Assembly (NCBI RefSeq): GCF_900109825.1
Contig: NZ_FOBL01000007.1
Location: 1 to 64,000 of the forward strand
Direction: 5' to 3'
Origin: Alkalibacterium putridalgicola
Lineage (GTDB): Bacteria; Bacillota; Bacilli; Lactobacillales; Carnobacteriaceae_A
DNA length: 64,000 nt
Below the pieces are notes generated by a model. That model was not told the DNA's origin. It made no database searches and saw nothing but the letters and a program-made list of their open reading frames with translations. The translations under genes and the position numbers were made by a program. Shown here in pieces: positions 1-57,565 of the stretch (the stretch's first letter is position 1; each line of letters opens with the position of its first letter).

Positions 1-190
1 CGGAGATGAGTGAACAGTATGCCCGTGAAAGTGTTCACTGACGGGATGATGAGACGCTCAGTGAACATTTCTGTCTCCCGAATGTCGCGCTCGCCAGCCA
101 GCTTGAATATGAGTGAACATCTACTTCTCTAAAATGTCGTACTGCAGACGAGTTTGACCCTGAGTGAACACTTTAGAGATAACAGATCTT
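1..190. repeat. Array A: 51-52 bp periodic dyad repeats (left end cut by window)
   Basis: The word TGAGTGAACA (TCAGTGAACA once) begins at 7, 58, 110 and 161, so the period is 51-52 bp. Each unit is about 34 bp with a left arm GAGTGAACA and a right arm resembling its reverse complement, followed by a 17-18 bp variable stretch. The first unit is the clearest dyad: AGTGAACA at 9-16 faces TGTTCACT at 32-39. The right arm decays to AATGTCG-type in units 2 and 3. The array may continue left of the window. No gene is visible in 1-495; the rest is the murE-like promoter region. Confidence 0.8.
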
Positions 191-303
191 ATAAACCGAT
201 ACATAATAAAATGAATGGCCGATTATAGATGCTCGGAGGGTTTAGCTGATAGTCTAATACCTGTGAAAAAAAACGTGCCGGTTACTGTTATCAAGCTAAA
301 TGA

Positions 304-333
304 TTTACTTCGATCAATGGTTTGCCATATACT
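304..333 (+). promoter_or_regulatory. Probable promoter of the MurE-like gene
   Basis: TTTACT at 304-309 and TATACT at 328-333 are separated by 18 bp. They lie about 160 bp upstream of the preferred start codon at 496, leaving a long leader in which I see no known riboswitch. Confidence 0.45.
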
Positions 334-495
334 AAAAAGGTACTTTAGAATGATAAGGATACAAAGGATGCTTTAACAGTGCGGATTAAAACATCTGCAG
401 CTTCTTTTTACATCCCTGATAGCGCAGAAGTGATCAGTAGCGAAAACGTCTCACGTCTTAAAGCTATACACAATCAAAAATGGAGGACCTATACC

Positions 496-2064
496 ATGAA
501 CTTATCAGTACTGCTTCAGTCGATCGATACTGTGTCTGAAAAGAACAGTAAGCACGATATAGAAATCAAAAATCTGGCCTATCATTCGAGTAAGGTCAAA
601 CCGGGGACACTGTTCGTGTGTATCCGCGGTTTCAAAACAGATGGCCATAACTATGCTGAAGCGGCAGTTAAAAATGGAGCGGCAGCTCTGATCGTCGAAC
701 GCTTCCTCCCTGATATCACGGTCCCGCAGTTTCTAGTCGCTGACGGGCGCAGAGCGCTGGCGTTGGTGTCGGACTGTTTTTATGGCCGACCTTCCCAAAA
801 CATGCGCATATTCGGCGTGACCGGAACGAACGGAAAAACGACGATTACATATATGACCGATGCTGTATTCAGAGCCAATGATCTGGCGACCGGACTCATC
901 GGAACGATCCTGGTCAAGTTCAGTGACGTCACGGTGCCAGCCGTACTGACGACCCCGGAATCTCTGGATCTGCAGCGGTACTTGAAAAAGATGGAGGATA
1001 AAGGCGTCTCGCATGTCTCAATGGAAGTCTCTTCGTCTGCTTTAGATCTGAAGCGCACGGAGAATTTGGCCTTCGATGTAGCCGCCTTTACAAATATCCA
1101 CCGTGATCATATCGAACTGCATGGGTCTTTTGAGGCTTATTACAATGCCAAAGCCTCGTTTATTCGTCAGGCGCCAAAATCGAGTGCGGCATTACTGAAT
1201 ATCGACGAATCGCTTTTAGAAAAGCTGAAAGATGAAACGGAAGCACAGGTGATCTCTTTCGGCATAAAGAATGACTCGGGACACTTCCACGTTTCTGATA
1301 TCGATATGTCAGACGGGATCCCTTCGTTTACTGTCACGCAGAAAAAGCCTGTAAAAAGTTTGACCGGCAGACCGATAAATTTAGAGCCTTTTCGGATCGA
1401 TCTAGCGGTGCCGGGACTTTATTCTATCTATAATGCGCTGACCGCCATCATCACAGGACTGGTGAATGATATCCCGTTAAACATAGTCAAATCGGGGATA
1501 GAAGGCTTTATAGGGGTCGAACGGCGCTTTCAGATCCTTTACGATAAAGAATTTACCGTCATTGACGATCTGCTCCTGAACGAAGACAACATCGAGGCGA
1601 GTTTAAAAGCGCTGAAAAACTTGAATTACAAGGCAATCCATTTTGTGCATGCGGTCCGCGGGAGTAGAGGGACTGAAGTCAATCGGGAAAATGCAGCTAA
1701 AATGGCCGACTGGTTTCCTTCTTTGAATATCAAAAACGTGACCCTGACAGCCAGTCGCTCACTTGTCGGGGAACTGGACACGGTTAAAAAAGAAGAAACA
1801 GCGGCGTTCACGGATGTCATGGAATCCAGAGGCATCGCAGTAGATTTTCATGAAGAACTGCATGATGCGCTCGCAGCCAGCCTCACACAGGTCGAACCGG
1901 GCGATATCCTGCTGATCACAGGAGCTCACGGAATGGATCACGGCGCACGGATCATCATGGAGCTGCTGAAAAAGAGACCTGGAACAGACAGGGTAGCAGT
2001 CGATGCGATCATGACTAAAAAAATGATCGGCATGGAGACGACTCAAAAATCAGATGTATCCTGA
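496..2064 (+). CDS. MurE-like Mur ligase (UDP-MurNAc-tripeptide synthetase family), divergent C-terminus
   Basis: Mur ligases join an amino acid to a UDP-MurNAc peptide with ATP in the cytoplasm. Start ATG 496 is chosen because GGAGG at 482-486 precedes it; a GTG at 379 would add 39 residues with no ribosome site. The 522-aa product has the MurE-type N-terminal domain and an ATP loop GVTGTNGKTT at residues 107-116, followed by a central-domain segment rich in conserved His (NIHRDHIELHGS). The C-terminal domain is odd: where MurE has a DYAHTP-type motif there is VIDDLLLNEDN, and I see no DNPR/DNPA amino-acid specificity motif. It may be a paralogue rather than the housekeeping MurE. It is monocistronic and convergent with yqfL. 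Confidence 0.75.
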   Translation: MNLSVLLQSIDTVSEKNSKHDIEIKNLAYHSSKVKPGTLFVCIRGFKTDGHNYAEAAVKNGAAALIVERFLPDITVPQFLVADGRRALALVSDCFYGRPSQNMRIFGVTGTNGKTTITYMTDAVFRANDLATGLIGTILVKFSDVTVPAVLTTPESLDLQRYLKKMEDKGVSHVSMEVSSSALDLKRTENLAFDVAAFTNIHRDHIELHGSFEAYYNAKASFIRQAPKSSAALLNIDESLLEKLKDETEAQVISFGIKNDSGHFHVSDIDMSDGIPSFTVTQKKPVKSLTGRPINLEPFRIDLAVPGLYSIYNALTAIITGLVNDIPLNIVKSGIEGFIGVERRFQILYDKEFTVIDDLLLNEDNIEASLKALKNLNYKAIHFVHAVRGSRGTEVNRENAAKMADWFPSLNIKNVTLTASRSLVGELDTVKKEETAAFTDVMESRGIAVDFHEELHDALAASLTQVEPGDILLITGAHGMDHGARIIMELLKKRPGTDRVAVDAIMTKKMIGMETTQKSDVS

Positions 2065-2135
2065 CTGATCTCTGGTTCATTTGCTTTTAGAAAGGATATT
2101 AAACGCGTTTGATCAAACATGTTCAATAAGCTGAA

Positions 2136-2192
2136 ATGCGCCCAGATCTCGCTCTCTGTTCAGGTCAGAACAGGAGCAGGACCTGGGCGCAT
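2136..2192. terminator. Hairpin between convergent murE-like and yqfL genes
   Basis: ATGCGCCCAG at 2136-2145 pairs with CTGGGCGCAT at 2183-2192. The loop is long and the T-run weak on both strands, so it may be a bidirectional terminator of modest strength. Confidence 0.5.
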
Positions 2193-2214
2193 CTATTCGT
2201 ATAAGAAAAGCCGT

Positions 2215-3027
2215 TTAATGATTATTCAATGAATCAATAATAATGGCAGATGTTTCTTCGATGGACTTGCTGGATACGTTGATGATCTGGCAGTTCAGCT
2301 TTTTATACAGTTCTTCAGCGTATTTGATCTCCTTGCGGATACGTTCTTTACTGGAATAAGGTGTTTCAGGATCCATACCGTAAGATATCATGCGTTCGCG
2401 CCTGATATTCGACAGCATTTCTTCCTCGTTCGTCAAGCCGACCATTCGATTTGGGTCCACTGACCAGATTTCATCAGGCAGGCGTGATTCAGGCATCAGC
2501 GGTAGGTTTGCGACTTTATACCCCTGATTGGCCATATAGATGCTTAAAGGAGTCTTGGATGTGCGGGAAATGCCTAAAATAACGATGTCTGCTTCCAGGA
2601 AGCCACGCGGATCTTTCCCGTCATCATACTGGACGGCAAACTCCAGGGCACTGATCCGGTTGAAATATTTATCGTCCAGTTTATGCTTGGCCCCCGGTTT
2701 ATGCTGGGGCATCGTATTCGTCCGGGCGGTGACTTCACTCAGTAGTGGATTGAGGACGTCGATGCATTTGATGTCATGTTCGGTACAGAAGGTCTCGATC
2801 GTCTCGACAAGGATCGGATCGACAAAGGTATGAAGGACGACAGCATTGAATCGTTTCGCTTTCTCAAGGACAACGGTCAGCTGATCTTCTTCCCGGATAA
2901 AGGGGAAATTCTTCAATTCATAGTCGACATCCGGAAACTGAGCCAGAGCGGCATGCACGACATTGCTTGCTGTCCCTCCGACCGAATCCGACAGGACCAT
3001 GATGGTTAAAGATGAATGTTGAGACAT
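2215..3027 (-). CDS. yqfL: Pyruvate, phosphate dikinase regulatory protein (DUF299/PSRP family)
   Basis: This family are bifunctional serine/threonine kinase and Pi-dependent phosphorylases that switch pyruvate phosphate dikinase or PEP synthase off and on, using ADP as phosphoryl donor. The 270-aa protein has the family P-loop GISRTSKTPLS near residue 153 and the conserved SDSVGGTA N-terminus. A ribosome site AAAGGAG lies just upstream of ATG 3027. Neither partner enzyme is in the window, so which one it controls is unknown. It is divergent from zur; in Bacillus its homologue sits in the dnaG-sigA neighbourhood, which is also nearby here. Confidence 0.9.
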   Translation of the reverse strand: MSQHSSLTIMVLSDSVGGTASNVVHAALAQFPDVDYELKNFPFIREEDQLTVVLEKAKRFNAVVLHTFVDPILVETIETFCTEHDIKCIDVLNPLLSEVTARTNTMPQHKPGAKHKLDDKYFNRISALEFAVQYDDGKDPRGFLEADIVILGISRTSKTPLSIYMANQGYKVANLPLMPESRLPDEIWSVDPNRMVGLTNEEEMLSNIRRERMISYGMDPETPYSSKERIRKEIKYAEELYKKLNCQIINVSSKSIEETSAIIIDSLNNH

Positions 3028-3104
3028 AATGAAATCTCCTTTCTCAAATTAAGTGATACCTTTAGTATATAGGAAGTCGTTTAGAATGAGAACAAATTTG
3101 AAAC

Positions 3105-3132
3105 TTGAATTTTTCAACTTTTGCGATATACT
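3105..3132 (+). promoter_or_regulatory. Probable zur promoter with overlapping dyad
   Basis: TTGAAT at 3105-3110 and TATACT at 3127-3132 have a 16 bp spacer. A TTGAAA ... TTTCAA dyad at about 3098-3116 overlaps the -35 and could be an operator, but it does not match the Bacillus Zur box as I remember it. Confidence 0.45.
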
Positions 3133-3170
3133 AGTTTAAGAATAACAAACTATATAAGGGAAGCGATAGT

Positions 3171-3599
3171 GTGTCTGCTTTTGAACAAGCTGTTAAAACG
3201 CTGAAGCGCAATGGGTACAAGACGACTGGTAAAAGACAGCGGATCCTCGAATTACTCTATAACTCTAATAAATATATGTCCGCCAAAGAAGTCCAGGACA
3301 AGCTGAAAAAAATGTTTCCGGGTATCAGTCCTGATACGATTTACAGAAATCTGCATACATTTGTCGAATTGAAGGTAGTGGAAGAAACCGAATTGAATGG
3401 AGAAAAACTTTTCCGGGCCACCTGTGATGTGCATGGGCATCATCATCACTTTATCTGTACAGTCTGCGGCAAGACGAAAGAGCTGGACTGTCCGCTTGAT
3501 CTGTTTCAGGATCAGCTGCCCGGGTATGAAGTCGATTCACATCGGTTTGAACTTTTTGGAAAATGCAGTAATTGCCTGCAGCTGCAGTCGACTAATTAA
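3171..3599 (+). CDS. zur: Zinc-responsive Fur-family repressor Zur
   Basis: Zur binds DNA as a zinc-loaded dimer and represses zinc uptake genes. The 142-aa product has a winged-helix N-terminal half (with SPDTIYRNLHTF recognition region near 50-61), the ELNGEKLFR hinge seen in Bacillus Zur, a HHHHF histidine cluster and two structural-zinc pairs: C96/C99 and C132/C135. Similarity to Bacillus Zur is closer than to Fur or PerR in the TELNGEKLFR and LPGY segments. The start is GTG 3171 after AAGGGAAG. It is transcribed alone, ending in a hairpin. No zinc transporter is adjacent. Confidence 0.82.
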   Translation: MSAFEQAVKTLKRNGYKTTGKRQRILELLYNSNKYMSAKEVQDKLKKMFPGISPDTIYRNLHTFVELKVVEETELNGEKLFRATCDVHGHHHHFICTVCGKTKELDCPLDLFQDQLPGYEVDSHRFELFGKCSNCLQLQSTN

Positions 3600-3600
3600 A

Positions 3601-3665
3601 AAAAGAGAGAGTGTTTATAATTTTGTCAGGATTTATTTGATGATGAGGTTGACGCTCTCTCTTTT
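3601..3665 (+). terminator. Terminator after zur
   Basis: AAAAGAGAGAGTGT and ACGCTCTCTCTTTT form long arms around a loop of about 38 nt, ending in CTTTTATT. Confidence 0.7.
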
Positions 3666-3808
3666 ATTGTATATAATAAACAGTGAATTGTATTATACTT
3701 TACGTATACCCTGCAATTACATCATTTAGTGATAGGGAAGACCAATTGTGACTATTTTATTTCTTGCAAAATGGAACTCCCTGAATGTACGAGGGGAGGG
3801 GAAGAACG

Positions 3809-3979
3809 TTGACTAAAACAGAACTCAAAAAAGGTGAAGATCTTGAGGATGCTCTACGTCGTTTTAAACGTTCCGTTTCTAAATCCGGCACTATGAAAGA
3901 AGCCCGTAAACGCGAGTACTACGATAAACCAAGTGTTAAACGTAAAAAGAAATCTATCGAAGCACGTAAACGCAAGTAA
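3809..3979 (+). CDS. rpsU: 30S ribosomal protein bS21
   Basis: bS21 is a small basic protein of the 30S platform close to the anti-Shine-Dalgarno region. The 56-aa product contains the family core [15 protein letters not shown]-like segment (here [15 protein letters not shown]) and a lysine/arginine-rich tail. The start is placed at TTG 3809, behind the very strong GGGGAGGGG at 3793-3801; an upstream ATG at 3785 would put this ribosome site inside the gene. It is followed after 45 bp by yqeY, as in Bacillus. Confidence 0.92.
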
Positions 3980-4024
3980 TTTCTCGCTTTACGATGTGCT
4001 TCGACATGATAGAAGGTGGACGAG

Positions 4025-4471
4025 ATGAGTAAACTTGATCAACTGAATCAGGATATGAAAACGGCTATGAAACAGAAAGATAAAGAAACATTATCAACTG
4101 TTCGTATGCTGAAATCTGCGCTTCAAACTGAACAAATCAACAAAGGCGAGGAACTTTCCGAGGAAGAAGAATTAACGATCCTTGCTCGTGAGAAGAAACA
4201 GCGTCTGGAGTCTTTGAATGAATTTAAGGCCGCCGGTCGTGATGATCTGGTCCTTAAACTGGAAAAAGAGCTCTCCGTTGTCGATAATTATCTTCCGGAA
4301 CAACTCAGTGAAGATGAGGTTCGTACCATTGTTCAGGAAACGATCGCTCAAACGCAGGCGTCATCCATGCAGGACATGGGTAAAGTGATGGGTGCGTTGA
4401 TGCCGAAAGTAAAAGGCAAAGCTGATGGATCATTAGTAAGCTCGATCGTAAAAGAAGAACTTAATAAATAA
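4025..4471 (+). CDS. yqeY: GatB/YqeY domain protein
   Basis: YqeY proteins carry only the C-terminal tRNA-binding-like domain of the GatB amidotransferase subunit; their exact role is not settled. The 148-aa sequence is of normal length and ends in the family pattern [18 protein letters not shown]. Start ATG 4025 is preferred over GTG 4016 because AAGGTGG at 4013-4019 is the ribosome site. It forms a two-gene unit with rpsU and is closed by a strong terminator. Confidence 0.9.
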
Positions 4472-4487
4472 ACCTTTGATCATAAAA

Positions 4488-4524
4488 GAACGCTGTTTAG
4501 AACTTTCTAAACAGCGTTCTTTTT
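4488..4524 (+). terminator. Strong terminator after yqeY
   Basis: GAACGCTGTTTAGA at 4488-4501 pairs perfectly with TCTAAACAGCGTTC at 4506-4519 around a 4-nt loop, then TTTTT. Confidence 0.95.
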
Positions 4525-4677
4525 ATGGACTGGTGAGTCCGAAGAAGGTAAACATGTGATTTTCTGCAACTTTATAGAGTTTTTTAGCTATTTATGCTAT
4601 TATTTATATACTTAAACGACTATCGAATGAGTGCTGATGATAGCGTCAGTCTTATCAAAGAAGGAGATGTTAACTGC

Positions 4678-5649
4678 TTGACTGAATCAAATGAGAAGCG
4701 ACAGATTCACTTAGAAGATTCGCAGCGCGTTTTTGCGCTATTTGGTCCTCAAAACAGTTATTTAAACTTGATCGAAGAAGAAATGGACGTGGTCATCAAC
4801 AGCCGCGGGACCAATCTTGAGATCGAAGGTGACAGTGAAACTATCGATCTGATCGACTCTCTTTTCCAGCAGCTGTTAGTCCTGGAAGAGAAAGGCATAA
4901 CAATAAAAAAAGCGGATATCGTGTCTGCTATCCGTATGGCAAAACAGGGCAAGCTCGGAAAATTCGTCCGCATGTACGAAGAAGAGATCACCCGCGATAA
5001 AGACGGCAAGATCCTGCGCGCCAGGAACGTGGGCCAGCGCAACTATATCGAGGCGATCAAGAATCACGACATCGTTTTCGGTATCGGTCCTGCGGGTACA
5101 GGAAAGACCTTTGTCGCTGTCGCTATGGCAGTTGCAGCGATGCGCAGAGGCGATGTCAAGCGCATCATCTTGACACGTCCTGCCGTTGAAGCCGGCGAGA
5201 ACCTGGGCTTCTTGCCCGGCGACTTAAAAGAAAAGGTGGATCCGTATCTTCGTCCCTTATATGATGCTTTGTACACGATTTTCGGCACCGAACATACCAA
5301 TCGGCTGATCGAGCGTGAGACCATCGAGATCGCGCCGCTGGCTTACATGCGCGGACGGACGCTCGATGATGCCTTCATCATTTTAGACGAAGCACAGAAT
5401 ACGACGACCCAGCAGATGAAGATGTTTTTGACGCGTCTCGGCTTCGGCTCAAAGATGGTCATCAACGGGGACATCACCCAGATCGACTTGCCTAAACGCG
5501 TGAGCAGCGGACTGATCCATGCCGAACGCGTCTTGAGCAACGTCAATGGTATCGCTCATGTGCACTTCGAGGCGGAGGACGTCGTCAGACATCCGCTCGT
5601 GGCCAAAGTGATCGATGCCTATGTCAATGAAACGGGCGGGGATGACTAA
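4678..5649 (+). CDS. phoH: PhoH family ATPase (PhoH-like/YbeZ)
   Basis: PhoH-type ATPases are RNA-associated P-loop proteins that work with YbeY in rRNA processing and ribosome quality control. The start is placed at TTG 4678 behind AAGGAG at 4661-4666; this gives 323 aa, the usual length, while upstream starts lack a ribosome site. The Walker A motif GPAGTGKT is near residue 140 and the Walker B segment FIILDEAQN near 235, followed by [10 protein letters not shown]. An N-terminal KH-like region precedes the ATPase. The stop codon overlaps the ybeY start by 1 base, implying translational coupling. Confidence 0.92.
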
Positions 5650-6119
5650 TGGATATCGCGATATACGATGAAACAAAACAGCTCACACCGGAAAAAACAG
5701 CCTGGATGGAAGATTTGCTGCAGTTCGCTGCCGCGAAACTGTCTATCCCGGAAAACGCTGAGATCTCGGTCACTGTGGTCGACGATCAGAAAATCAGAGA
5801 GATCAACCGGGAATACCGGAACAAAGATGCCGTCACGGACGTCATCAGTTTCGCCCTGGAAGACGATGAAGACATCTTCATGACGCTGGATATGGAAGAA
5901 GGAGAGATCCCGAGAGACCTTGGGGACATTTTTCTCTCCTATGACAAGGCTGTCGAGCAGGCCGAGGAGTATGGTCATTCAGTCGACCGCGAGCTGGGCT
6001 TTCTGCTCGTTCACGGCTTCCTGCATTTGAACGGCTACGATCATATGACCGAGACCGATGAGAAGGAAATGTTTTCACTACAAGAGGAGATTTTAAGAGA
6101 GTATGGACTCAAAAGATAG
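5649..6119 (+). CDS. ybeY: Endoribonuclease YbeY
   Basis: YbeY is a zinc-dependent single-strand endoribonuclease needed for 16S rRNA 3' end maturation. The 156-aa protein contains the metal motif [11 protein letters not shown] near residues 120-130, with three histidines, plus the conserved DVISFAL segment near 65. It overlaps phoH by 1 base upstream and dgkA by 17 bases downstream, so the phoH-ybeY-dgkA block is a single compact operon. Confidence 0.95.
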
Positions 6120-6498
6120 GCACGACCTTCCAGGTAAAAACAGAAAATACAGAGAATCCTTCCGCTATGCTTTCTGGGGCGTCAAGACGGCCTTTCAGGA
6201 AGAACGAAACATGCGGACCCACGTCATCACAGGGCTCCTTGTTCTGGTCGTGTCGCTGTTCCTTGACCTGACACGCTATGAGTGGCTCTGGCTGATCCTT
6301 GTCAGCTACCTGGTGTTCGTTATGGAACTCATCAATACAGTGGTGGAGAACGTCGTTGACCTGGTCACGGAAGAGTTTCATCCGATCGCCAAGAAAGTCA
6401 AGGACATGGCAGCGGCTGTTGTTCTCGTTACGGCAGGCTTCGCCGCACTGGTCGGCATCATCATTCTATTACCTAAGTTACTGCAAATTTTTATATAA
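6103..6498 (+). CDS. dgkA: Undecaprenol/diacylglycerol kinase family protein
   Basis: In Gram-positives this small membrane kinase phosphorylates undecaprenol, recycling the lipid carrier for the cell wall. The 131-aa protein has three hydrophobic helices and the family active-site stretch [14 protein letters not shown] near residues 75-88, followed by [12 protein letters not shown]-like residues (here [13 protein letters not shown]). It starts inside the end of ybeY (17 bp overlap). Confidence 0.92.
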
Positions 6499-6526
6499 AA
6501 AATACTACTAAAAAGAGGCGATATAA

Positions 6527-7839
<1,313 letters not shown>

Positions 7840-7868
7840 GGTTAACGGGAAAGTGAGAAGGTGACTGA

Positions 7869-8654: not shown

Positions 8655-8686
8655 TAAGGCGACTCAGCTGGTATGAAAGTTTAAGA

Positions 8687-8714
8687 TTGACAAATCATGT
8701 CATTCAGTTAAGAT
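8687..8714 (+). promoter_or_regulatory. Promoter of the glyQS T-box transcript
   Basis: TTGACA at 8687-8692, a 16 bp spacer and TAAGAT at 8709-8714, just upstream of the T-box leader. Confidence 0.7.
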
Positions 8715-8721
8715 AGACTAT

Positions 8722-8954: not shown

Positions 8955-8981
8955 GTTGTTTTATTAAAAGGAGAGAGAAAA

Positions 8982-15064: not shown

Positions 15065-15121
15065 TTTGTTGAGTTTTTGATCGAATGGGGGGACAGGAAC
15101 ACGTTCTTTTATTGTTTGTTC

Positions 15122-15315
15122 AAGAAGTGGTGCCAAAAAGGAATTAGTGACTAGTTCTATATAAATGTTTTTTGGAAGTAGTCTCAATAAGTGTTTAGTG
15201 TCCAGTTCGGTGCCCATTTGTCTAGGAAGTGGTCGCAAAGAATGTTTAGTGACCAGTTCGTCACACATTTTCTGAGGAAGTAGTCTCAAAGACGATTTAT
15301 CTGATTTCTCAACTG
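15122..15315. repeat. Array B: four 51 bp periodic dyad units
   Basis: GAAGT(A/G)GT begins at 15124, 15175, 15226 and 15277, an exact 51 bp period. The first three units each have a 34 bp element that starts GAAGT and ends AGTTC, then a 17 bp variable spacer. In the third, GAAGTGGTCGC faces GTGACCAGTTC, an imperfect inverted pair. The array fills the gap between the niaX terminator and the dnaG promoter. Because 51 is 17 codons, the minus strand shows a spurious 17-residue repeat (see rejected items). Confidence 0.85.
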
Positions 15316-31998: not shown

Positions 31999-32045
31999 AA
32001 AAAGCGAGCCGATTCTTAATTTCACAGAATCGGCTCGCTTTTTGC
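31999..32045 (+). terminator. Terminator after rexA
   Basis: AAAAAGCGAGCCGATTCT at 31999-32016 pairs with its complement at 32026-32043. A second small hairpin, GCCTGTCT/AGACAGGC, follows at 32045-32067. Confidence 0.95.
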
Positions 32046-32102
32046 CTGTCTAGAAAAAGACAGGCAGGCATATATCTAGAACTCGGCAAAGAGATGAGTT
32101 TT

Positions 32103-32414
32103 GGGCTGCCATTATGACGAATGATAATCCTGATTCAGTGACAGTTCTTCCTATGAGTTCCTATTATACCGGCTGTTAGCCCAAACCCAGCGATATCTTT
32201 TCTTTTGAGATGCCATTATAACGACAGATAACCTGAATTCAGTGTCATTTTTCATTTTGAGTTACTACTATAACGTCTGATAACCTTAATTCAGTAATAA
32301 GGACCATCACGAGTTCCTATTATAAGGATTGATAACCCAATCTCAGTGATCAGACTCGCCCCGAGTTGCTGTGAGAGTTATCAAATCCGCCCAATCTATA
32401 ATGAATGATTAGGC
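32103..32414. repeat. Array C: six 52 bp periodic dyad units
   Basis: Unit starts are 32103, 32155, 32207, 32259, 32311 and 32363: exactly 52 bp each. A unit is a 34 bp element with left arm like GAGTTCCTATTATAA and right arm like GATAACCNNAATTC, then an 18 bp spacer that tends to begin with AGTG. The last unit decays. The array lies between the convergent rexA and DUF4015 genes, past both terminators. Arm sequence is close to that of array G (AGTTCCTATTATA is shared). Confidence 0.9.
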
Positions 32415-32511
32415 TTTAGCCTAATCAGGACCGCATGGAATATCATGGCAGTGTGTTTGCGCCATTTCAAAGTGAGGAAAGAAGGAACCTGAAGTTTTTA
32501 ATATAAGAAAA

Positions 32512-32537
32512 AAAGCTGAGACCGAGGTCTCAGCTTT
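32512..32537 (-). terminator. Terminator of the DUF4015 operon
   Basis: GCTGAGACC, GA, GGTCTCAGC at 32515-32534 is a perfect stem; on the minus strand it is followed by a run of T (AAAAAAA at 32508-32514 on plus). Confidence 0.92.
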
Positions 32538-32553
32538 CCTTATAGCATTACAT

Positions 32554-39224: not shown

Positions 39225-39650
39225 TTATATAAGAATGAGGTGAGATCAGGAAATGCTGTTGGTACTTCTTATAACTCCCTTGATGAAATCGTTCGAGTTC
39301 AGGCAGTGGAAGATTCTTTTCGTAACTCCTTGTTTTTTACCAGGTGACTTACGAGAAGAAGGCTCATGTTTTAGCATCCCAAAATTTTTTACCACTCCAG
39401 TTACTATAAGAAGGCCTTTCTTCTGGCATCTCCAGAGACTAAAAAGGTGGAGTTAGTAAAAGGATGGGCTTCTTTTATTAACTCAGACCATTATAAAAAA
39501 GGGGTTATCAAAAGAACGGCCCTTTTTTAGTAACTCAACCATTTTTGATCAGATCAGTTAATAGAAGAAGAGCGATCTTTTGGCAACTCCTCCACAGGAT
39601 TATAACGAGTTTATAAAAGAAAAAACCCCTTCTAGTAACTCCACAGGTCC
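39225..39650. repeat. Array D: about eight 51-53 bp periodic dyad units
   Basis: The right-arm end AACTC(C/A) or a variant falls at 39273, 39324, 39375, 39428, 39480, 39532, 39585 and 39637. Units are 34-35 bp dyads with arms GAGTTANTAAAAG and CTTTTNNTAACTC plus 17-18 bp spacers. The best is 39450-39484: GAGTTAGTAAAAG faces CTTTTATTAACTC with one mismatch. It occupies the gap between the convergent FAS1 and rqcH genes, between their terminators. Confidence 0.9.
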
Positions 39651-44194: not shown

Positions 44195-44956
44195 ATGAGA
44201 AAAACACGCGCGAATAAAAACAATCCGAATGATCCGAAAAATAACAGTAAGATCGAAAAAATCTATTATGTGGTCATTGGACTGCTGGTCGTTATTTTAG
44301 GCGGTCTGGTCATCTTTATTTTCGCCAACCAGGATGATGTCGTCACGGACGAGGACCAAAACGGTACGCAGGATTCTGAACTGGTTTCTGAAACTGATGA
44401 AAATGCGTCATCTGAAGGAACAGAAACAGACGAAAATACAGATGAAGAACCGGCGGCTGAAGAGGAAGCAGCTGAGGAAGGCACCGTAGATCAGGAGGTC
44501 GATACGGAAGCCGAGGAAGCAGTTGAAGAAGCCGAAACCGAAGAAGAACCCGAAGAAAATACAGATGAAGAAACCACTGAGGAACCGGCGGATACAGAAG
44601 AGACAACAGAAGAAGCACCTGAAGAAGAAACAGCAGACGAAACTGAGACAGAAGAAGAGACAACCGATGCAGACATCAATGCCGATGCACCGCTGAACGA
44701 AGGCTACAACATCAACTTCAGCGACGGATCCAGTGACCGTAACGCCATTGAGCAAAATGCCAGTGCAGTCAGCGGCATCAGCCAGAGCGACATGATCACC
44801 TGGTGGGTAGGAAACAATGGTCCTGGCCGTGCCTTTACAGTCGTTTCAGACAGTGGAAGAAACACTGTTTACCGCGTTTATCTCCAGTATGGTGAAGATG
44901 CTTGGCACGTTACAGCTGCCGAAGAACTTGACAGCGTCCCCTCAGAATACCGCTAA
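44195..44956 (+). CDS. YrrS-like (DUF1510) membrane-anchored protein
   Basis: The 253-aa protein has a basic N-terminus, one TM helix (about residues 26-48), a 120-residue low-complexity linker made largely of E, T, D and A (50-165), and a C-terminal domain of about 85 residues beginning at NYNINF-like YNINFSDGSS that resembles the DUF1510/YrrS domain. Bacillus YrrS is linked to division and cell-wall penicillin-binding proteins; no such gene is adjacent here, so function is inferred weakly. TATAAT at 44137-44142 is its likely -10 box. Confidence 0.65.
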   Translation: MRKTRANKNNPNDPKNNSKIEKIYYVVIGLLVVILGGLVIFIFANQDDVVTDEDQNGTQDSELVSETDENASSEGTETDENTDEEPAAEEEAAEEGTVDQEVDTEAEEAVEEAETEEEPEENTDEETTEEPADTEETTEEAPEEETADETETEEETTDADINADAPLNEGYNINFSDGSSDRNAIEQNASAVSGISQSDMITWWVGNNGPGRAFTVVSDSGRNTVYRVYLQYGEDAWHVTAAEELDSVPSEYR

Positions 44957-45027: not shown

Positions 45028-45159
45028 AGTGATTTAAAAGGAACAAAATGAGCCCGCTCATTTTGATATCCTTATTTTGTTTCGGTTTGGTCGTTAGGTC
45101 AGGCTGAGGTGATCCTAATGACAGAAGTTCAGCATGTTCAACAGGTTCATATGGATAGT

Positions 45160-45420
45160 TCAAACGTAAGTACCGAAGCAGGGCCTCCTTCGGCTGATAG
45201 GACATGTTTGTTCAAAGCTAAGTGTCGAAGTCGGGCTTCTTCGGTAAGTACTAGCCGTTTTCTCAACTGTAAGTGTCGAACCAGGACCAGCTTCGATGCT
45301 TAGGAACCGCTGCTCCAAACGTAAGTGTCGAAGTTCGGCAACTTCGGTCGATTCGAACTGTTTATCCAAACGTAAGTGCCGAACCGGAAAAACCTTTCGG
45401 CTTATCCGTCTCCTGATCCT
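45160..45420. repeat. Array E: five 51-52 bp periodic dyad units
   Basis: The word (G/C)TAAGTGTCGAA or close variants places its first T of TAAG at 45167, 45219, 45270, 45322 and 45373, giving spacings 52, 51, 52, 51. Right arms carry TTCGG or TTCGA about 22 bp after the left CGAA, e.g. CTAAGTGTCGAA facing TTCGGTAAGTAC. It lies between the YrrS-like terminator and the DUF697 GTPase gene (codirectional). The arm words are shared with array F. Weak ORFs here are by-products of the repeats. Confidence 0.85.
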
Positions 45421-45423
45421 CTT

Positions 45424-46882: not shown

Positions 46883-46898
46883 ATAGACAGGGAATTAG

Positions 46899-47011: not shown

Positions 47012-47044
47012 ACTAAAGAGTCAACAACTATAGGAGTGAATATT

Positions 47045-48734: not shown

Positions 48735-48758
48735 TGACGAAAGAGAGAAGGGGATAAG

Positions 48759-49324: not shown

Positions 49325-49329
49325 GGGAT

Positions 49330-50575: not shown

Positions 50576-50659
50576 GCAAACCTGATCGAAAGGCAGCCGC
50601 CCGACAAGTCAACTGATCGAACCGACCGCACCATACTTCAGGAAAAGAAGGTGAAACCA

Positions 50660-52605: not shown

Positions 52606-52620
52606 GCACCAAAATGAGGA

Positions 52621-52649
52621 AAGAGAGCGATCGCTCTCTTTTTTTTTTA
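52621..52649 (+). terminator. Terminator of the Mrp operon
   Basis: AAAGAGAGCG and CGCTCTCTTT flank AT, a perfect palindrome at 52621-52642, continuing into a run of T to 52648. Confidence 0.92.
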
Positions 52650-52751
52650 CTAAAGATGAAAAATATAAAGCCTGATCCTTTTATTTTTGCACCAAGTCAA
52701 GCTACAATTAACTTATCATCACTTCGAGACAAACTAAGGGGGGAACGGAAC

Positions 52752-53345
52752 ATGACAGAACCTTTCTTGAATAAAGAACTTACTACACTCAATGCACCAA
52801 AAAAGATGGAACAGACCGACGAAAGCCTAGTGATCCATACCGAACCGGGGACGGATCTCTGGCAGCGGACGTATTACGGCTTTCAGAACGACAATGCGCC
52901 GATGGTTCAGACCCAGACAGATGAACCGTCCTTTTCATTCGTCACAAAAGTCGAGAATGAAAGCAGTCACCGTTTTGACCAGGCAGGGATCGTGGTATAT
53001 CTGGATTCAGATAACTGGATCAAGGCGTCGTCAGAATACGAGAACGAAGACTACCAGCGTCTGGGAAGCGTCGTGACGAACGGCGGATACTCAGACTGGG
53101 CCAGTCAGGATATCGACGCGGCGATCACGACTGTCTGGTATCGGCTCAGCCGCAGAGGACCGGACTTCCGTGTGGAGTATAGCCTGGACGGCACAAATTT
53201 CAAGCAGATCCGTATCTGCCATATGGATAAAGGCGACGCACCAGTTTCCTTTGGTGTGTATGCCTGCAGTCCAGAAAATGGCTCCTTTAAAGCGACCTTC
53301 AGCGAGATGACGATCGGACCCGGCGTATGGGAAGCGCATGAATAG
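52752..53345 (+). CDS. DUF1349 domain protein
   Basis: The 197-aa protein matches the DUF1349 family, a concanavalin-like beta sandwich similar to Bacillus YxiM/YqaB-type relatives, of unknown biochemical role. Landmarks are FDQAGIVVYLDSDNWIKAS near residue 75, WYRLSRRGPDFRVEYSLDG near 130 and FGVYACSPENGSFKATF near 170. No signal peptide, so it is cytoplasmic. Start ATG 52752 follows AGGGGGGAACGG. Single gene between the Mrp operon and array F. Confidence 0.78.
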   Translation: MTEPFLNKELTTLNAPKKMEQTDESLVIHTEPGTDLWQRTYYGFQNDNAPMVQTQTDEPSFSFVTKVENESSHRFDQAGIVVYLDSDNWIKASSEYENEDYQRLGSVVTNGGYSDWASQDIDAAITTVWYRLSRRGPDFRVEYSLDGTNFKQIRICHMDKGDAPVSFGVYACSPENGSFKATFSEMTIGPGVWEAHE

Positions 53346-53459
53346 GAGAGAGTCTATACAAAAGCTGCAGAGGTTAGTGTAGACCAGCAAAAGGGATAAT
53401 TTATTTTAAGCTTTTACAGTTTTTTGACTGGGTTCAGTAAGTACGATCAGTCTTTTGTA

Positions 53460-53760
53460 ACGTAACTGTCGAAGTCGGTCAAGTTCGGTAACTAGCCGGC
53501 GTAATCCTTGATCTACTTACCGAAGTAAGCGCCGGTTCGACACTTTGAAAAGTAATCGGTCGTTCTACTTGCCGAAGAAGGCTCCATTCGGTAAGTAGGA
53601 TGATTTGATGCATAGCTATCGACCGAATAGGCCGTACTTTCGACACTTACAGCTAAGCCTAGCTAACCTACTTGTCGAAGTTCACCCGGTTCGGCATTTA
53701 GCCGAGAGTCTCCTTTAGCTAACTGTCGAACCAGGGAGTATTAAGACCCGCCGGACTGAA
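53460..53760. repeat. Array F: six 51-52 bp periodic dyad units
   Basis: The CGAA of the left arm lies at 53470, 53521, 53573, 53624, 53676 and 53727 (spacings 51, 52, 51, 52, 51). The best unit, 53565-53598, is a 12-10-12 dyad: CTACTTGCCGAA facing TTCGGTAAGTAG, one mismatch, exactly 34 bp. Spacers are 17-18 bp. It fills the gap between the convergent DUF1349 and ndk genes; 53346-53459 holds nothing else recognisable apart from a weak GTCTATAC/GTGTAGAC pair. Confidence 0.9.
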
Positions 53761-53890
53761 TAACCTCTAACTCTTGCAGCTCGCTTGCCTTGAAAGTGAA
53801 TCAGATCGGTAAACGATTTATATTTCTGCAATTTAAACAAAGCAGACAACGGGGCTTATATTTATCGCAGAAATTATTTGATAAAAAAAA

Positions 53891-53910
53891 GAGCTGGAAG
53901 CTTCCAGCTC
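53891..53910 (-). terminator. Terminator of ndk
   Basis: GAGCTGGAAG and CTTCCAGCTC form a perfect palindrome; the A-run just before it on plus is the T-run for the minus-strand gene. Confidence 0.92.
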
Positions 53911-53927
53911 GACCTTATTTCACTTCA

Positions 53928-54344
53928 TTACTTCTCGTACAGTTCACCAAACCACAGCATCATTTCCCGCTCGGCACTTTCGACTGAATCCGACGCATGA
54001 ATCGTGTTTTCCGTCTTGTCTTTTCCGTAAAGGGTACGGATGGTATTGGGGCGGGCGACCTTCGGATCGGTGTCACCGACCAGCTCACGTACGCGGTGGA
54101 CCGCTTCTTCACCATCGATCACACAGACGACCAGGGGGCCACGTGTGATATAGTCCAGCAGTTTATTGAAAAATGGCTTATCAGCCAGTTCAGCATAGTG
54201 CTTGCGTGCCAGTTCCATATCGGCCTGCATCATCTTAAGGCGGCTGATGCGTAGATCATTACGTTCAAATTCTTTCAACAGATGGCCCGTCAGATTTCGT
54301 TCGACCCCATCCGGTTTGATAATGACCAGTGTGCGTTCTTCCAT
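53928..54344 (-). CDS. ndk: Nucleoside diphosphate kinase
   Basis: Ndk equilibrates NTP and dNTP pools through a phosphohistidine. The 138-aa protein begins ERTLVIIKPDGVERNL and carries the active histidine in ENTIHASDSVESAE (about residue 117). The family arginines are in ARPNTIRTLYG. Many Lactobacillales lack ndk, so its presence is mildly informative. Transcribed alone. Confidence 0.96.
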   Translation of the reverse strand: MEERTLVIIKPDGVERNLTGHLLKEFERNDLRISRLKMMQADMELARKHYAELADKPFFNKLLDYITRGPLVVCVIDGEEAVHRVRELVGDTDPKVARPNTIRTLYGKDKTENTIHASDSVESAEREMMLWFGELYEK

Positions 54345-54494
54345 TCAAACATCCTCCTCTAAATTATTTCTAATTTCAGCTTATCACATTAATACGAAAC
54401 TTTGAAAAAAAGACTCTCGAAACTGTAAGCCATTTCAAGTAGAATAAATATAGATAAGTGTTACATAAAATATTTTTATAGAAAGGATGACAAG

Positions 54495-54917
54495 ATGACA
54501 CACCATCTAAGATACTTAGCGCTAACTGGAGCACTACTCACTTTAGCGGGATGCGGCACGGATGAAGACGTTTCAAAAATCCAGACCGAGCCTATCTCAC
54601 TGCTGCGTATAAAAGACGGAAGCGACGAGACCGAAGCACCACGACATATCCAGATCAGACCTGAACAGAAGGAGGTCAGTATCTTCGACGGCTTTGATGA
54701 CACTGATGAGGACGTTGATGGTTTTGAAGACTTTGAGAATGATGAAGGGTATGAGAACCATGAGCTTGTCACCTATGACGTCTCAGACAAAACGATCGAC
54801 ATCAGTTATGACGACAGAAGTATTTCTTTGACTGACATCGACAACCGTCAGTATGAAGACGAAGAAGGCAATATCTATCAGATGGAGTTTTACACCGAAA
54901 ATTACGAAGACGACTAA
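54495..54917 (+). CDS. Small acidic lipoprotein of unknown function
   Basis: The 140-aa product has a lipoprotein signal with lipobox LAGC (C20) and a very acidic middle (residues 60-90, D/E/F/N rich), ending in a more structured segment TIDISYDDRSISLTDIDN near 105. I do not recognise the family. AAAGGATG precedes ATG 54495. Flanked by ndk (divergent) and an SDR gene. Confidence 0.7.
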   Translation: MTHHLRYLALTGALLTLAGCGTDEDVSKIQTEPISLLRIKDGSDETEAPRHIQIRPEQKEVSIFDGFDDTDEDVDGFEDFENDEGYENHELVTYDVSDKTIDISYDDRSISLTDIDNRQYEDEEGNIYQMEFYTENYEDD

Positions 54918-55005
54918 CATTTCAATTTTATTCAAAGTAATTTATGCATGAAGAAAATAGGCCTAACTTTCAGATCAACTAAACTTAATAAGGGAGGAAA
55001 TATTA

Positions 55006-55716
55006 ATGATAGACATCAAAAACAAATGGACACTTGTAACGGGAGCGAGTCGGGGGATCGGACGGGAGATCGCTTTAGCCATGGCAAAAAGGGGCGCCAA
55101 CGTCATCGTCCACAGCCGCGAACTCGCACACACGGAATCGCTCGTGGAAGAGATCAGACAGCTTGGCGTGAATGTCTTTCCTGTAGCAGCGGAACTGTCG
55201 AATGAAGAAGCGGCCAGAGACATGGCCGACACGGTTTTAGAAAAAGCACCGGTTTCTATCCTCTTCAATAATGCGGGCGTCCAGCCAATGAGTCAGGACC
55301 CGTACTGGAAAGTGGACGCGAATGACTACTTATGGACCTATAAAATAAACGTGATCGCTCCGATGCTACTCATTGAAAAATTCCTTCCGGGCATGGTGGA
55401 ACAGAACTTCGGACGGATCATCAACACCACTAGCGGCATCAAGAATCAGCCCGCTCAAGGCGCTTATGCAGCGTCAAAAGGGGCGCTGGACAAGCTGACC
55501 AGAGACTACGCCGGCGAACTGAAAGGCAAAAACGTGACGATCAATGCCGTCGACCCCGGCTGGATCAAAACAGATATGGGCGGATCACAGGCATCTCACT
55601 CGGTGGAAACCGTCATCCCTGGCATGATCCTTGGCGCCTTTGTTAAAGAAGACGTCAGCTGCCAGTGGCTTCAGGCCCAGGGCTTTAGAGGACAAAGCCT
55701 GGAAGAAGCCTTATAA
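55006..55716 (+). CDS. Short-chain dehydrogenase/reductase
   Basis: A cytosolic NAD(P)-dependent oxidoreductase of the FabG-like SDR class. The 236-aa protein has the cofactor motif TGASRGIGRE near residues 13-22, NNAGVQ near 87, catalytic Ser in NTTSGIKN and YAASKGALDKL (Tyr and Lys, near 150). VDPGWIKTDMGG is the usual C-terminal segment. AGGGAGGAAA precedes the start. No fatty-acid synthesis genes adjoin, so substrate is unknown. Confidence 0.92.
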   Translation: MIDIKNKWTLVTGASRGIGREIALAMAKRGANVIVHSRELAHTESLVEEIRQLGVNVFPVAAELSNEEAARDMADTVLEKAPVSILFNNAGVQPMSQDPYWKVDANDYLWTYKINVIAPMLLIEKFLPGMVEQNFGRIINTTSGIKNQPAQGAYAASKGALDKLTRDYAGELKGKNVTINAVDPGWIKTDMGGSQASHSVETVIPGMILGAFVKEDVSCQWLQAQGFRGQSLEEAL

Positions 55717-55755
55717 AAAGCTTGAAAAAGACCTGAACTAAAAAGGAGACCAGTC

Positions 55756-55836
55756 GTGTGGTCCCGAAACATCCGGTTATTAGGGGCCGCAGACTACTTA
55801 TTAATGACTGAATCATATTATCCAGAAAAGAGGTGA
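55756..55836 (+). CDS. Possible 26-residue leader or remnant peptide
   Basis: AAAGGAG at 55743-55749 is well placed before GTG 55756. The reading frame encodes 26 residues (beginning MWSRNIRLLGAADYLL) and its stop TGA at 55834-55836 falls within the ribosome site of the SWIM gene, so translation would be coupled. It could be a real small protein, a leader peptide or the end of an eroded gene. The evidence is only the ribosome site and position. Confidence 0.3.
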   Translation: MWSRNIRLLGAADYLLMTESYYPEKR

Positions 55837-55841
55837 GCGAG

Positions 55842-56816
55842 ATGAAACTGACTGCATTCGAAACCGAGATCGATTCAAAAATCCTTGACCGCGGGCTGGA
55901 CTACTTCAAGCGGGACAAAATACTGGACGTCAAAAAAAACGACGACCGGCACTATACTTTTACTGTCGAAGGGACGAAACCGTACACGGTCACCGTGACG
56001 TTCGCCGAGGACCTGAACACCATCACGCATGCGTTATGTGACTGTCCTTATGACAAGGGACCCTTCTGCAAGCACCAGGCGGCGGCCTTTTACCATTTAT
56101 CTGTGAGCCTGGGTCTGAAAGGGATGGGAATCAACGACACAAACCTGCGCCTCAGTCTCTCACGGCTCTATAAAAACGAACTGATCGAGCTGCTCGTTGA
56201 GATGGCTATGAAATACCCGTCCGAACAGGAATACTTTTTGATGAAACACGCCAAGTACCGGCTGTACCCGGATCTGCGCTACCTGAAAATGACCTTTGTC
56301 AAAAAAATCGAATTCTACCTCAACGGCAGAGATGATCTGACTTCTTATACCTTGATGGACGTCACCGATGACCTGGCTCAAGTGGTCGACATCGCCCGAG
56401 AGATCGACGAACTCGTCCTCTTCTTCAACACACAGCTTTTCTTCTATACCGAAGTCCTGATGATCAAAGAATACACGCAGGACCAGTTCGGCAGCATCGA
56501 TGCCTTACTTACATACATCCTATTTGAGATGCAACAGCGGCTGGATCAGCATTCATTCATCACATCAGCTAAAAAATCCAATATCGTCGTCACTCTGGAA
56601 ATGACCCTGGACCACAAACTCTACGACACGCACATGCAAAAATCCGTCCAGCTCATCGATGCCTTCAAAGACTACCTGGAAGAAGACCTCCCCAGAAAAA
56701 AATACATCGCACTCATAAACAAGAAGATAGACATCTGTAATCAGATGGGGGACGGAACGAACTATAAAGAGCTCGAACAGTTGAAACAGTATGTCGAACA
56801 GTGGTATGGGGGATAA
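55842..56816 (+). CDS. SWIM zinc finger protein
   Basis: SWIM domains bind zinc with CxCxnCxH and mediate DNA or protein contacts. The 324-aa protein has the motif at C66, C68, C76 and H78 (ALCDCPYDKGPFCKHQAA), within the first quarter; the rest is helical with no recognisable catalytic motif (LSLSRLYKNELIELL onward). ATG 55842 is preferred over GTG 55833, which is part of the ribosome site GAGGTGAG. Function unknown; similar stand-alone SWIM proteins are common in Firmicutes. Confidence 0.82.
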   Translation: MKLTAFETEIDSKILDRGLDYFKRDKILDVKKNDDRHYTFTVEGTKPYTVTVTFAEDLNTITHALCDCPYDKGPFCKHQAAAFYHLSVSLGLKGMGINDTNLRLSLSRLYKNELIELLVEMAMKYPSEQEYFLMKHAKYRLYPDLRYLKMTFVKKIEFYLNGRDDLTSYTLMDVTDDLAQVVDIAREIDELVLFFNTQLFFYTEVLMIKEYTQDQFGSIDALLTYILFEMQQRLDQHSFITSAKKSNIVVTLEMTLDHKLYDTHMQKSVQLIDAFKDYLEEDLPRKKYIALINKKIDICNQMGDGTNYKELEQLKQYVEQWYGG

Positions 56817-56832
56817 AAGGAGACGGTCGATA

Positions 56833-56997
56833 ATGGGAAGATTTGACAGCTTGACACAGTACCTGCCGATGATCGCGTCAGACAGCATCGGTAAGTGGGT
56901 CATTGATGAAGAGAATGACGGAACACCGGCGCATCCGATCCAGATGCCCTATGTTGAGCACTTATTTCGGACATCTTTTTTCTTTTTCTTCACCTAG
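56833..56997 (+). pseudogene. Truncated small ORF, possible DUF6508-like N-terminal remnant
   Basis: Behind a good ribosome site (AAAGGAG at 56816-56822) ATG 56833 opens a 54-residue frame. Residues 1-44 look like a real protein start (GRFDSLTQYLPMIASD, then ENDGTPAHPIQMPYVEH); from memory they resemble the N-terminus of DUF6508 proteins. The last ten residues are LFRTSF plus a phenylalanine run encoded by T/C-rich DNA, so the gene appears to have lost its 3' part at about 56965, next to array G. Family assignment is tentative. Confidence 0.5.
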
Positions 56998-57039
56998 ACA
57001 CATTCAGAAGCCATTCACACGAAAAAGGTCAGGCGCTGT

Positions 57040-57565
57040 AATAAGTTCACGTTTATTGAAGGCTATTTCGGGAGCTCATCCTTTTTCCGGCACCCACTTA
57101 CTGGAATAGTTGCTTATTTCAGGTACTCGACCTCATGGCAAGCGCTCAGTTCCTGGAATACATACTTATTGCAGGCACTCGACCTCATGGCTAGTCTTCA
57201 GTCCCGGGAATAGTCGCTTATTTCATGAACTCGACCTTATGGCGAGCGCTCAGTTCCTTGAATACATACTTATTGCAGGAACTCGCACGTGTTAAAGTCT
57301 TCGAGTTACGGCTATTGCCGCTTATATCGGTAACCCAAGTCGTACATAGATGTCGAGTTCCCACTATAGCGGATATTAGCAGTATCTCAAGCTACTTTTA
57401 GTCTTTCAGTTCCTATTATAGGCACCAATAATAGGAACTCATCCGCATTTTTCTGCCACAGTTATGCTTATACGTCCTTATAACAGCAACTCACTCTCGT
57501 TCCTTCCAATCAGTTACAGCTATAAGTGCTCATAACAGGAACTCAATTAATCTTTCTCATTTCAG
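57040..57565. repeat. Array G: ten 52 bp periodic dyad units
   Basis: The CTC ending each dyad lies at 57075, 57126, 57178, 57230, 57282, (57334), 57386, 57438, 57490 and 57542, a nearly exact 52 bp period. Each unit is 34 bp, left arm like CAGTTCCTGGAATA and right arm like TATTGCAGGAACTC, plus an 18 bp spacer. The best, 57408-57439, pairs AGTTCCTATTAT with ATAATAGGAACT perfectly. Spacers of units 1-3 are alike (GACCTCATGG), later ones differ. It lies between the truncated ORF and the convergent two-TM gene. Confidence 0.93.

Follow-up and report, generated by a model that had tools for sequence, protein, structure and literature searches.

The window, a stretch of 64,000 nucleotides from Alkalibacterium putridalgicola analysed at its full length, carries seven intergenic arrays, A to G, in which a palindromic unit recurs every 51 or 52 bp (Table 1). 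Array B is flanked by the 3′ end of a gene and by dnaG. Convergent genes enclose array C (addA and a DUF4015 gene) and array D (a fasciclin-domain gene and an NFACT gene). Related sequences lie elsewhere in the genome: by eye, the arms of array A are those of loci L081 and L082, blastn ties the family of array B to seven other intergenic regions, and a segment of ~620 bp in array G has a 76–77% identical copy at C61.

Table 1. Arrays and terminator-like hairpins in the window.
Feature	Position	Strand	Arms	Units and context
Array A	1..190	.	family VI, GAGTGAACATT-like	truncated by window edge; weakest of seven
Array B	15096..15315	.	family III, GAACTAGTCTCAA / TTGTGACCAGTTC	4 units, period 51 (TRF: 51)
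Terminator-like hairpin	31999..32044	+		gene left of array C; predicted, between gene and array
Array C	32064..32414	.	family I, GAGTTCC	6 units of 52 parsed
Terminator-like hairpin	32510..32539	-		gene right of array C; from sequence and terminator prediction
Array D	39225..39650	.	family I-like, GAGTTACTAAAAGAA	~8 dyads, 6 units parsed
Array E	45131..45420	.	family II, TAAGTGTCGAA	5 units, spacings 51/52
Array F	53460..53760	.	family II	~6 dyads, 3 units parsed; convergent genes, right = ndk
Array G	57040..57590	.	family I	~10 dyads, period 52, 5 units parsed; convergent genes

A sequence-only reading of the window had proposed that these seven arrays share one plan, a 34-bp dyad followed by a spacer of 17–18 bp. 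Autocorrelation at the seven positions tops out at lag 51, 52 or 103 in every case. A blind scan of the window over lags 20–139 recovered arrays B–G, and none of five shuffles, in which bases were permuted inside 500-base blocks, reached the threshold; outside B–G the remaining matches all had lags that were multiples of 3, as from coding DNA. Array A held up in part: lag 103 was seen, but the signal is weak (match 0.46, z 4.8) and lies at the window edge. Its dyad centres fall at 24, 77.5 and 130, and it was missed by the parser of gaps between called genes. The earlier estimate of some 43 units is close to the count from a chain of dyads, which gives 4, 4, 7, 9, 6, 7 and 11 centres for A–G, or 48, some of the end centres scoring at chance. 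The 34-bp dyad was recovered without preset edges; in the 30 of 47 arrays with z ≥ 1.5, consensus symmetry is high from 5 to 17 bases off the axis and no different from the controls beyond.

The wider statistics come from 62 parsed regions, 15 of which, with fewer than three units, were excluded; genes were called with a purpose-written hexamer script. Each unit consists of a 34-bp dyad of 13-8-13 layout and a spacer of 17–18 bp. Because the first parse let units shift by ±2 only, the spacing walk was redone with units free by ±12, and the spacing stayed at 50–53: across 47 arrays there were one spacing of 50, 96 of 51, 75 of 52 and five of 53, so that 171 of 177 were 51 or 52. One spacing of 55 occurs in the gap of array D in Alkalibacterium sp. 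20, an array outside the 47 measured. One geometry is thus kept over many arm sequences, as had been claimed. Taken one by one, the arrays are modestly more symmetric than shuffled columns (mean z 1.95, with 11 of the 47 below 1). Each arm contains a pair of conserved boxes, 5–7 and 13–17 bases off the axis and some 10 bp from one another. At least six arm families can be distinguished, I and II having been grouped by eye, most of them with a loose common half-site that reads, from the outer edge inward, TGAGTT.GT...AWAA. When 36 of the 47 arrays (z ≥ 1.0) were aligned on the symmetry axis alone, 81% of half-sites had A at position 15, with the proviso that arrays belonging to the same family are not independent samples and that L077 and L090 are one locus taken twice; the information common to all families is low. 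The centre bases of neighbouring units agree at 0.55 directly and 0.33 when inverted, which indicates that units are mostly head-to-tail. The alternating orientation hinted at by lag 103 in arrays A, E and F is not general, a two-unit repeat being found at L081 and L088 only.

Arrays are frequent in this genome and spread through the genus. In a 623-kb sample of the genome, 34 of 187 intergenic regions held a 51/52-bp array, a figure that overstates the density since most of the stretches sampled were starts of contigs, which are rich in arrays; away from stretch ends the count was 19 of 154. Arrays occur in eight of the ten other genus genomes sampled; L106 (1.2 kb of G005) lay outside the analysed set. 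The sole hit in G011, at lag 103, is weak (match 0.50, a single unit parsed). No array inside the class limits was found in 15 regions of G002, five of G010 and nine of the A. pelagium stretches, though A. pelagium has, by eye, a single full 34-bp unit where A. thalassium has six. None of 170 regions from other genera held a 51/52-bp array; for enterococci (11 loci, none from E. faecalis) the count was 0 of 80 intergenic regions. As to periods besides 51/52 in genus intergenic DNA, the 14 regions listed (lag >35) resemble, by eye, duplicated promoters, mis-called coding DNA or noise; exceptions are a 106-bp array of similar look in G002, and L128 of A. subtropicum, where the second-best lag is 51.

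With respect to genes, the arrays lie at 3′ ends. Among regions parsed to at least two units, they occupy 13 of 39 convergent gaps, 23 of 193 codirectional gaps and one of 68 divergent gaps (two divergent regions, L052:12619 and L013:17909, which passed the lag test but yielded one unit, were excluded), so that convergent gaps are preferred and divergent ones avoided. The proteins neighbouring the sole divergent array (L044), read by eye, give no hint of a regulator. As raw counts taken without a control set, predicted terminators separate the upstream gene from the array in 12 of 18 codirectional cases, and nine of 12 convergent arrays are flanked by one or more.

The arms are better conserved than the DNA around them. 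The comparison had two parts, the first on 30 arrays with at least four units and the second on 27 with mean conservation ≤0.88; in these 27 diverged arrays the excess of arms over spacers was 0.136, against 0.004 with columns shuffled (p = 2.8e-7). Spacer positions of the same 27 are 0.66–0.76 conserved between units of one array, and the 8-bp centre is among the least conserved parts (0.64–0.75). A CRISPR array was rejected because the spacers are not unique. Between species, in a comparison of one gap and one species pair, the five orthologous units of array E agree with those of A. subtropicum at 109 of 130 arm positions (84%) and at 74 of 128 loop and spacer positions (58%; p = 4.8e-6). 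Units turn over locally, as the sequence-only reading had supposed: in gap C the distance between matching arms exceeds that in A. subtropicum by 260 bp, or 5 × 52 (by eye), and gap E has seven units there (by eye), five of which pair one-to-one with the five of the window. The claim that arms are conserved within an array stands; the claim that they differ between arrays does so in part, several families being common to several loci. Divergence by locus is likewise only half right, since arm families are dispersed and the arms in one gap belong to different families in two sister species, gap D of A. subtropicum holding a family II array instead.

These results favour, with a probability of roughly 0.5, the view that the arrays are DNA-level rows of paired inverted half-sites to which a protein would bind. 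Sites of a protein-binding type had been among the earlier suggestions, and they are supported by the arm constraint within arrays and between two species and by the stable spacing. The arm constraint would look alike, however, if the arms served merely the spread of a selfish element.

A selfish or neutral satellite-like repeat of the BOX or MITE kind, growing by tandem duplication, unequal exchange and copying of segments between loci, is a possible, if unlikely, explanation. Its arms would be kept merely for the copying machinery, and gene 3′ ends would be places that tolerate such DNA. The gain and loss of whole units between sister species at gaps C and E fit it, as do the scattering of arm families over loci, the presence of young, near-identical arrays alongside old ones, and the contrast between the one A. 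pelagium unit and the six of A. thalassium. There is also a parallel in the pneumococcal elements BOX, RUP and SPRITE, which, in the part of the source available, are enriched between convergent genes and read as possibly parasitic (PMC3049150). Yet a pure satellite would hardly be expected to hold a 51/52-bp period through six or more arm families in several species, or to keep arms above spacers in unit-by-unit orthologues between species. The search for transposases, which covered the Y1 and serine recombinase families, also speaks against it: Y1 is absent from several array-bearing genomes and a serine recombinase from that of the window.

Site-specific recombination is a distinctly less probable source. 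The arrays would be lox-like 13-8-13 sites, and a tyrosine recombinase would also add and remove units. The geometry of loxP is indeed 13-8-13, so that arm and centre lengths agree; the two boxes per arm resemble protein contacts, gain and loss proceed in unit steps, and the genome encodes two Xer-sized proteins and a 385-aa protein of the phage integrase family. However, the 8-bp centre must match between recombining sites, and here it is poorly conserved; the sites are tandem and their arms family-specific. The dif site of the Xer system has 28 bp (11-6-11). A single dif-like site in the genome, at C68, has this geometry and other arms; it differs from the array dyads in length and arm sequence, and identity with dif was rejected. 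No serine recombinase was found in the window's genome, which also weighs against recombination.

It had further been suggested that the arrays are RNA hairpin trains; located in 3′ untranslated regions, these would block exonucleases or end transcription. The dyads are as large as stem-loops and lie at gene 3′ ends, which would suit such a role, but it is very improbable. In 44 arrays with at least three units and flanks (211 units), 2098 of 4220 cells were paired, against 2090.6 ± 15.3 expected, and for the arms alone 1262 of 2158, against 1256.8 ± 9.9 (z = 0.5); planted compensation of 10% gave z = 3.0. G-U is not in excess, with 148 G-U to 151 A-C mismatches overall and, in codirectional arrays, 79 to 86 on the sense strand. 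Without within-unit compensation, and with G-U no commoner than A-C, DNA half-sites are favoured over RNA hairpins. The predicted terminator ahead of most codirectional arrays also counts against this suggestion, which did not survive, and no Rfam family matched the window at gathering score.

That the arrays are ordinary BIME/REP elements mobilised by a RAYT (Y1) transposase is hardly credible: regular rows of intergenic palindromes at gene 3′ ends and an IS200-type tnpA fragment adjoining one array (L081, L115) are in its favour, but seven of 12 genus genomes lack any Y1 match (five have one), the Y1-free G001, G003, G006 and G007 carry arrays and G011 a weak one, the window's genome has six partial matches and no full one, units are mostly head-to-tail rather than alternating, and the common outer edge of pooled half-sites, TGAGT, is unlike GTAG or CGTC. 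Neither a Y1 transposase nor a serine recombinase accounts for the arrays.

The arrays are of the BIME/BOX kind. By its description, EFAR of Enterococcus faecalis is similar, an intergenic element that is palindromic and modular, varies in length and is put together from several sequence types. The boxB unit of streptococcal BOX, which lies in tandem between the end modules boxA and boxC, has 45 bp, compared with 51/52 bp in Alkalibacterium, where the arm constraint is not RNA-like. As far as the available parts of the sources describe them, the BIME/REP elements of enterobacteria and Pseudomonas, with RAYT, are clustered, regularly spaced intergenic palindromes present many times per genome, features shared with Alkalibacterium (PMC2817692; PMC3733652), and the foot tetranucleotides of REP/RAYT are GTAG or CGTC (PMC3733652, which, in the part available, also names EFAR). 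The Alkalibacterium arrays differ from these in having no need of a Y1 transposase, in their head-to-tail units, and in spreading at least six arm families with outer edge TGAGT over one 51/52-bp plan. Streptococcal BOX, in the accessible description, is intergenic and modular, has a tandem middle part whose units vary in number, and is enriched between convergent genes (PMC3049150); the variable tandem units, the preference for convergent gaps and the order Lactobacillales are common to both. The sequence-only reading knew of no repeat class with this plan, and a literature search for Alkalibacterium intergenic or palindromic repeats and for the 51/52-bp plan gave no description among the matches listed, judged partly by title.

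If the arrays are rows of protein-binding half-sites, each unit would offer two 13-bp half-sites around an 8-bp centre, followed by the spacer of 17–18 bp. The repeat averages 51.5 bp, near five helical turns, so that successive dimers or tetramers would share one face of the DNA. We infer that the bound protein may line up cooperatively where transcription units end, acting in nucleoid organisation or in insulation between convergent genes, roles that have also been proposed for the BIMEs of E. coli. Since the arm families differ widely, a single protein would need loose specificity, and several related proteins may be required. A more specific proposal, offered tentatively and rather unlikely as it stands, is a genus-specific chromosome organiser, a cooperative protein that would polymerise on helically phased 51/52-bp lattices at transcription-unit ends throughout the chromosome. 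Arms would then drift into families and be swapped in place with the lattice spacing kept, and the conserved signal would be the spacing and not the sequence.

Sequence is what usually defines intergenic palindromic repeats; in Alkalibacterium the geometry outlasts the sequences. One period and one 13-8-13 plan run through six or more arm families at many loci, with arms under selection amid the turnover of units. The role of BIME- and BOX-like arrays may thereby be put in simply testable form, by looking for the binder of the arms and by setting spacing against sequence.

The best repeat lags at the seven places where the sequence-only reading had put intergenic arrays (A–G) were 51, 52 or 103 by autocorrelation. 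That these arrays are real was confirmed by a blind scan of the window over lags of 20–139, which recovered B–G; five block shuffles of the window gave zero scan matches, and every remaining match in the window had a lag divisible by 3. Array A is truncated at the window edge and is supported by a lag of 103 and by arms that, by eye, are common to two other stretches, L081 and L082. An Rfam search of the window gave no match.

The 51–52-bp autocorrelation peak anticipated by the same reading was found in pooled intergenic DNA without the window, with peaks at 51, 102, 52 and 103. The sample from the window's genome (G000, a 2.6-Mb draft in which the window is C54:1-64000) comprised 622,788 bases, including the window. 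Intergenic regions 200 bp or longer were assigned to the 51/52 class when the best lag was 50–53, 101–105 or 152–157 with a match of at least 0.5. The class accounted for 34 of 187 regions, a proportion that counts one locus twice (L077 and L090) and is inflated because the sampled stretches are mostly contig starts; another lag was best in 6 regions, and 2 shuffled regions passed the threshold at any lag. Away from stretch ends, where 33 of the sampled regions lie, the class made up 19/154. Since 15 of the 34 class regions are at contig ends, draft assemblies tend to break at arrays.

Parsing of 62 regions produced 244 units. Spacings in the 47 arrays of at least three units were 50 (1), 51 (96), 52 (75) and 53 (5), when shifts of up to ±12 were permitted in the walk; a single spacing of 55, outside these arrays, was seen in Alkalibacterium sp. 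20. Leave-one-out placement within ±15 bases left 171/171 units unmoved (30 arrays of at least four units). When the consensus was folded at its best axis, dyad symmetry extended from 5 to 17 bases from the axis (t = 4 to 16, where t is the position index counted from the axis; weak at t = 7), with control levels beyond, which defines a 13-8-13 dyad of 34 bp. Individual arrays were modestly symmetric (mean z 1.95; z < 1 in 11/47), and conservation within arrays was highest at t = 4–6 and t = 12–16. Alignment of 36 arrays on the axis alone gave the half-site preference T17 G16 A15 G/A14 T13 T12. G10 T9 ... A5 A/T4 A3 A2, with A15 in 81% of half-sites; certain arm families deviate from it. By arithmetic alone, one period equals five helical turns (51.5/5 = 10.3).

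Samples of intergenic regions from further genomes of the genus contained arrays in 8/10 genomes: G001 (3/24 regions), G003 (3/26), G008 (2/16), G004 (1/7), G006 (1/5), G007 (1/9), G009 (1/4) and G011 (1/14, a weak match with a single parsed unit). None were present in the sampled regions of G002 (0/15), which has a 106-bp array of similar look outside the class, or G010 (0/5). Class arrays occupied 9/41 regions at species-named Alkalibacterium loci and 16/99 in stretches of seven species-named genomes (A. pelagium 0/9), two sets that overlap each other and possibly the genomes just listed. Outside the genus they were found in 0/170 sampled regions (seven other genera of the family, 81; Marinilactibacillus, 6; Lacticigenium, 3; Enterococcus, 80).

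Over best segments, AddA encoded in the window shares 93% identity with its A. subtropicum counterpart and 79–85% with those of A. kapii, A. gilvum and Alkalibacterium sp. 20. Gain and loss of units in orthologous gaps, proposed earlier as a check, was borne out in the gap holding array C: by eye, the distance between matching arms in the window exceeds that in A. subtropicum by 260 = 5 × 52 bases, and the whole gaps differ in length by 253. A. thalassium has six units in this gap and A. pelagium one full 34-bp unit. Gap E contains five units in the window and seven in A. subtropicum. Gap D has the same flanking genes in both genomes; its array is of the GAGTTA type in the window and belongs to family II in A. 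subtropicum. Judged by eye, no array stands in the orthologues of gap B (A. kapii, A. thalassium), gap D (A. gilvum) or gap E (sp. 20, A. gilvum).

The main rival explanation is a selfish element that would itself depend on these arms. At least six arm families (I–VI; consensus list, grouped by eye) can be told apart among arrays of the window's genome. Intergenic blastn joined ten regions around family III, two of these (L083 and one in L043) via other sequence, six of family IV, four of family V, two being one locus, and three of family VI; links in families I and II were made by eye, except for the array G pair. This pair looks like a segmental duplication, because about 110 bp of the flank preceding the array was copied too and because the copy begins close to another gene's start codon. 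An IS200-type element possibly inserted into or beside the family VI array at L081. Y1 transposase gave six partial matches in the window's genome and was matched in 5/12 genomes of the genus; arrays occur without any match in G001, G003, G006 and G007, as does the weak array of G011. A search of the window's genome for serine recombinases found none, and its tyrosine recombinases are two of Xer size, one of 385 aa and one fragment. A dif-like site, with arms unlike those of the arrays, occurs once and differs from the B. subtilis type sequence at 3 positions.

Coordinates of individual features (C, contigs of G000; L, analysed stretches)
Feature	Location	Observation
Array G segment	window 56970-57600	~620 bp, present twice
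Second copy of array G segment	G000:C61:13527-14244	76-77% identity
Region joined to family III set	L043:5684-6062	linked via other sequence
IS200-type transposase fragment	L081:1-330 (G000:C46)	fragment and its right end directly adjoin family VI array
Tandem copies	L013:17922-18230	three, ~100 bp, promoter-like boxes (by eye), upstream of gene; different repeat kind
Divergent gap	L044:4894-5420	sole one with array of at least 2 units; right-hand gene comK-like (by eye)
Threefold-periodic segment	window 44300-44790	many lags, all multiples of 3; within ORF 44195-44956
dif-like site	G000:C68:13490-13517	

In 27 diverged arrays, the conservation excess of arms over spacers was 0.136, compared to 0.004 in column-shuffled controls (p = 2.8e-7). 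For gap E, a single gap compared in one species pair, five orthologous pairs of units gave identities of 109/130 in arms and 74/128 in loop plus spacer (p = 4.8e-6). Left and right arms fitted no better within a unit than across different units of the same array (2098 vs 2090.6 ± 15.3); a further within-unit test gave 1262 vs 1256.8 ± 9.9, where 10% planted compensation gave z = 3.0. Mismatches were even, with 148 G-U and 151 A-C; the sense-strand counts were 79 and 86. These two results speak against the RNA hairpin trains once suggested, and from sequence comparison the constraint looks like that of DNA half-sites.

Arrays of at least two units lie in 13/39 convergent, 23/193 codirectional and 1/68 divergent gaps, stretch ends excluded (convergent vs divergent, p = 4.7e-6), and in 12/25, 22/104 and 1/29, respectively, of gaps of at least 350 bp. 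A crude scan without control, which missed certain terminators visible by eye, predicted a terminator between the upstream gene and the array in 12/18 codirectional cases and at least one flanking the array in 9/12 convergent cases; two forward-strand terminators were predicted inside 30 arrays.

We take EFAR to be among the nearest known kinds of repeat. Literature on Alkalibacterium intergenic or palindromic repeats, judged partly by title, yielded no account of such arrays, and a search on the array plan found nothing on bacteria. As far as the consulted portions of the sources go, the nearest kinds include BIME/REP and BOX (PMC3733652, PMC2267715, PMC3049150, PMC2817692, PMC3116915). The arrays are a real, genus-wide class of intergenic arrays with conserved geometry and constrained half-sites; their likeliest reading is a lattice of protein-binding sites where transcription units end.
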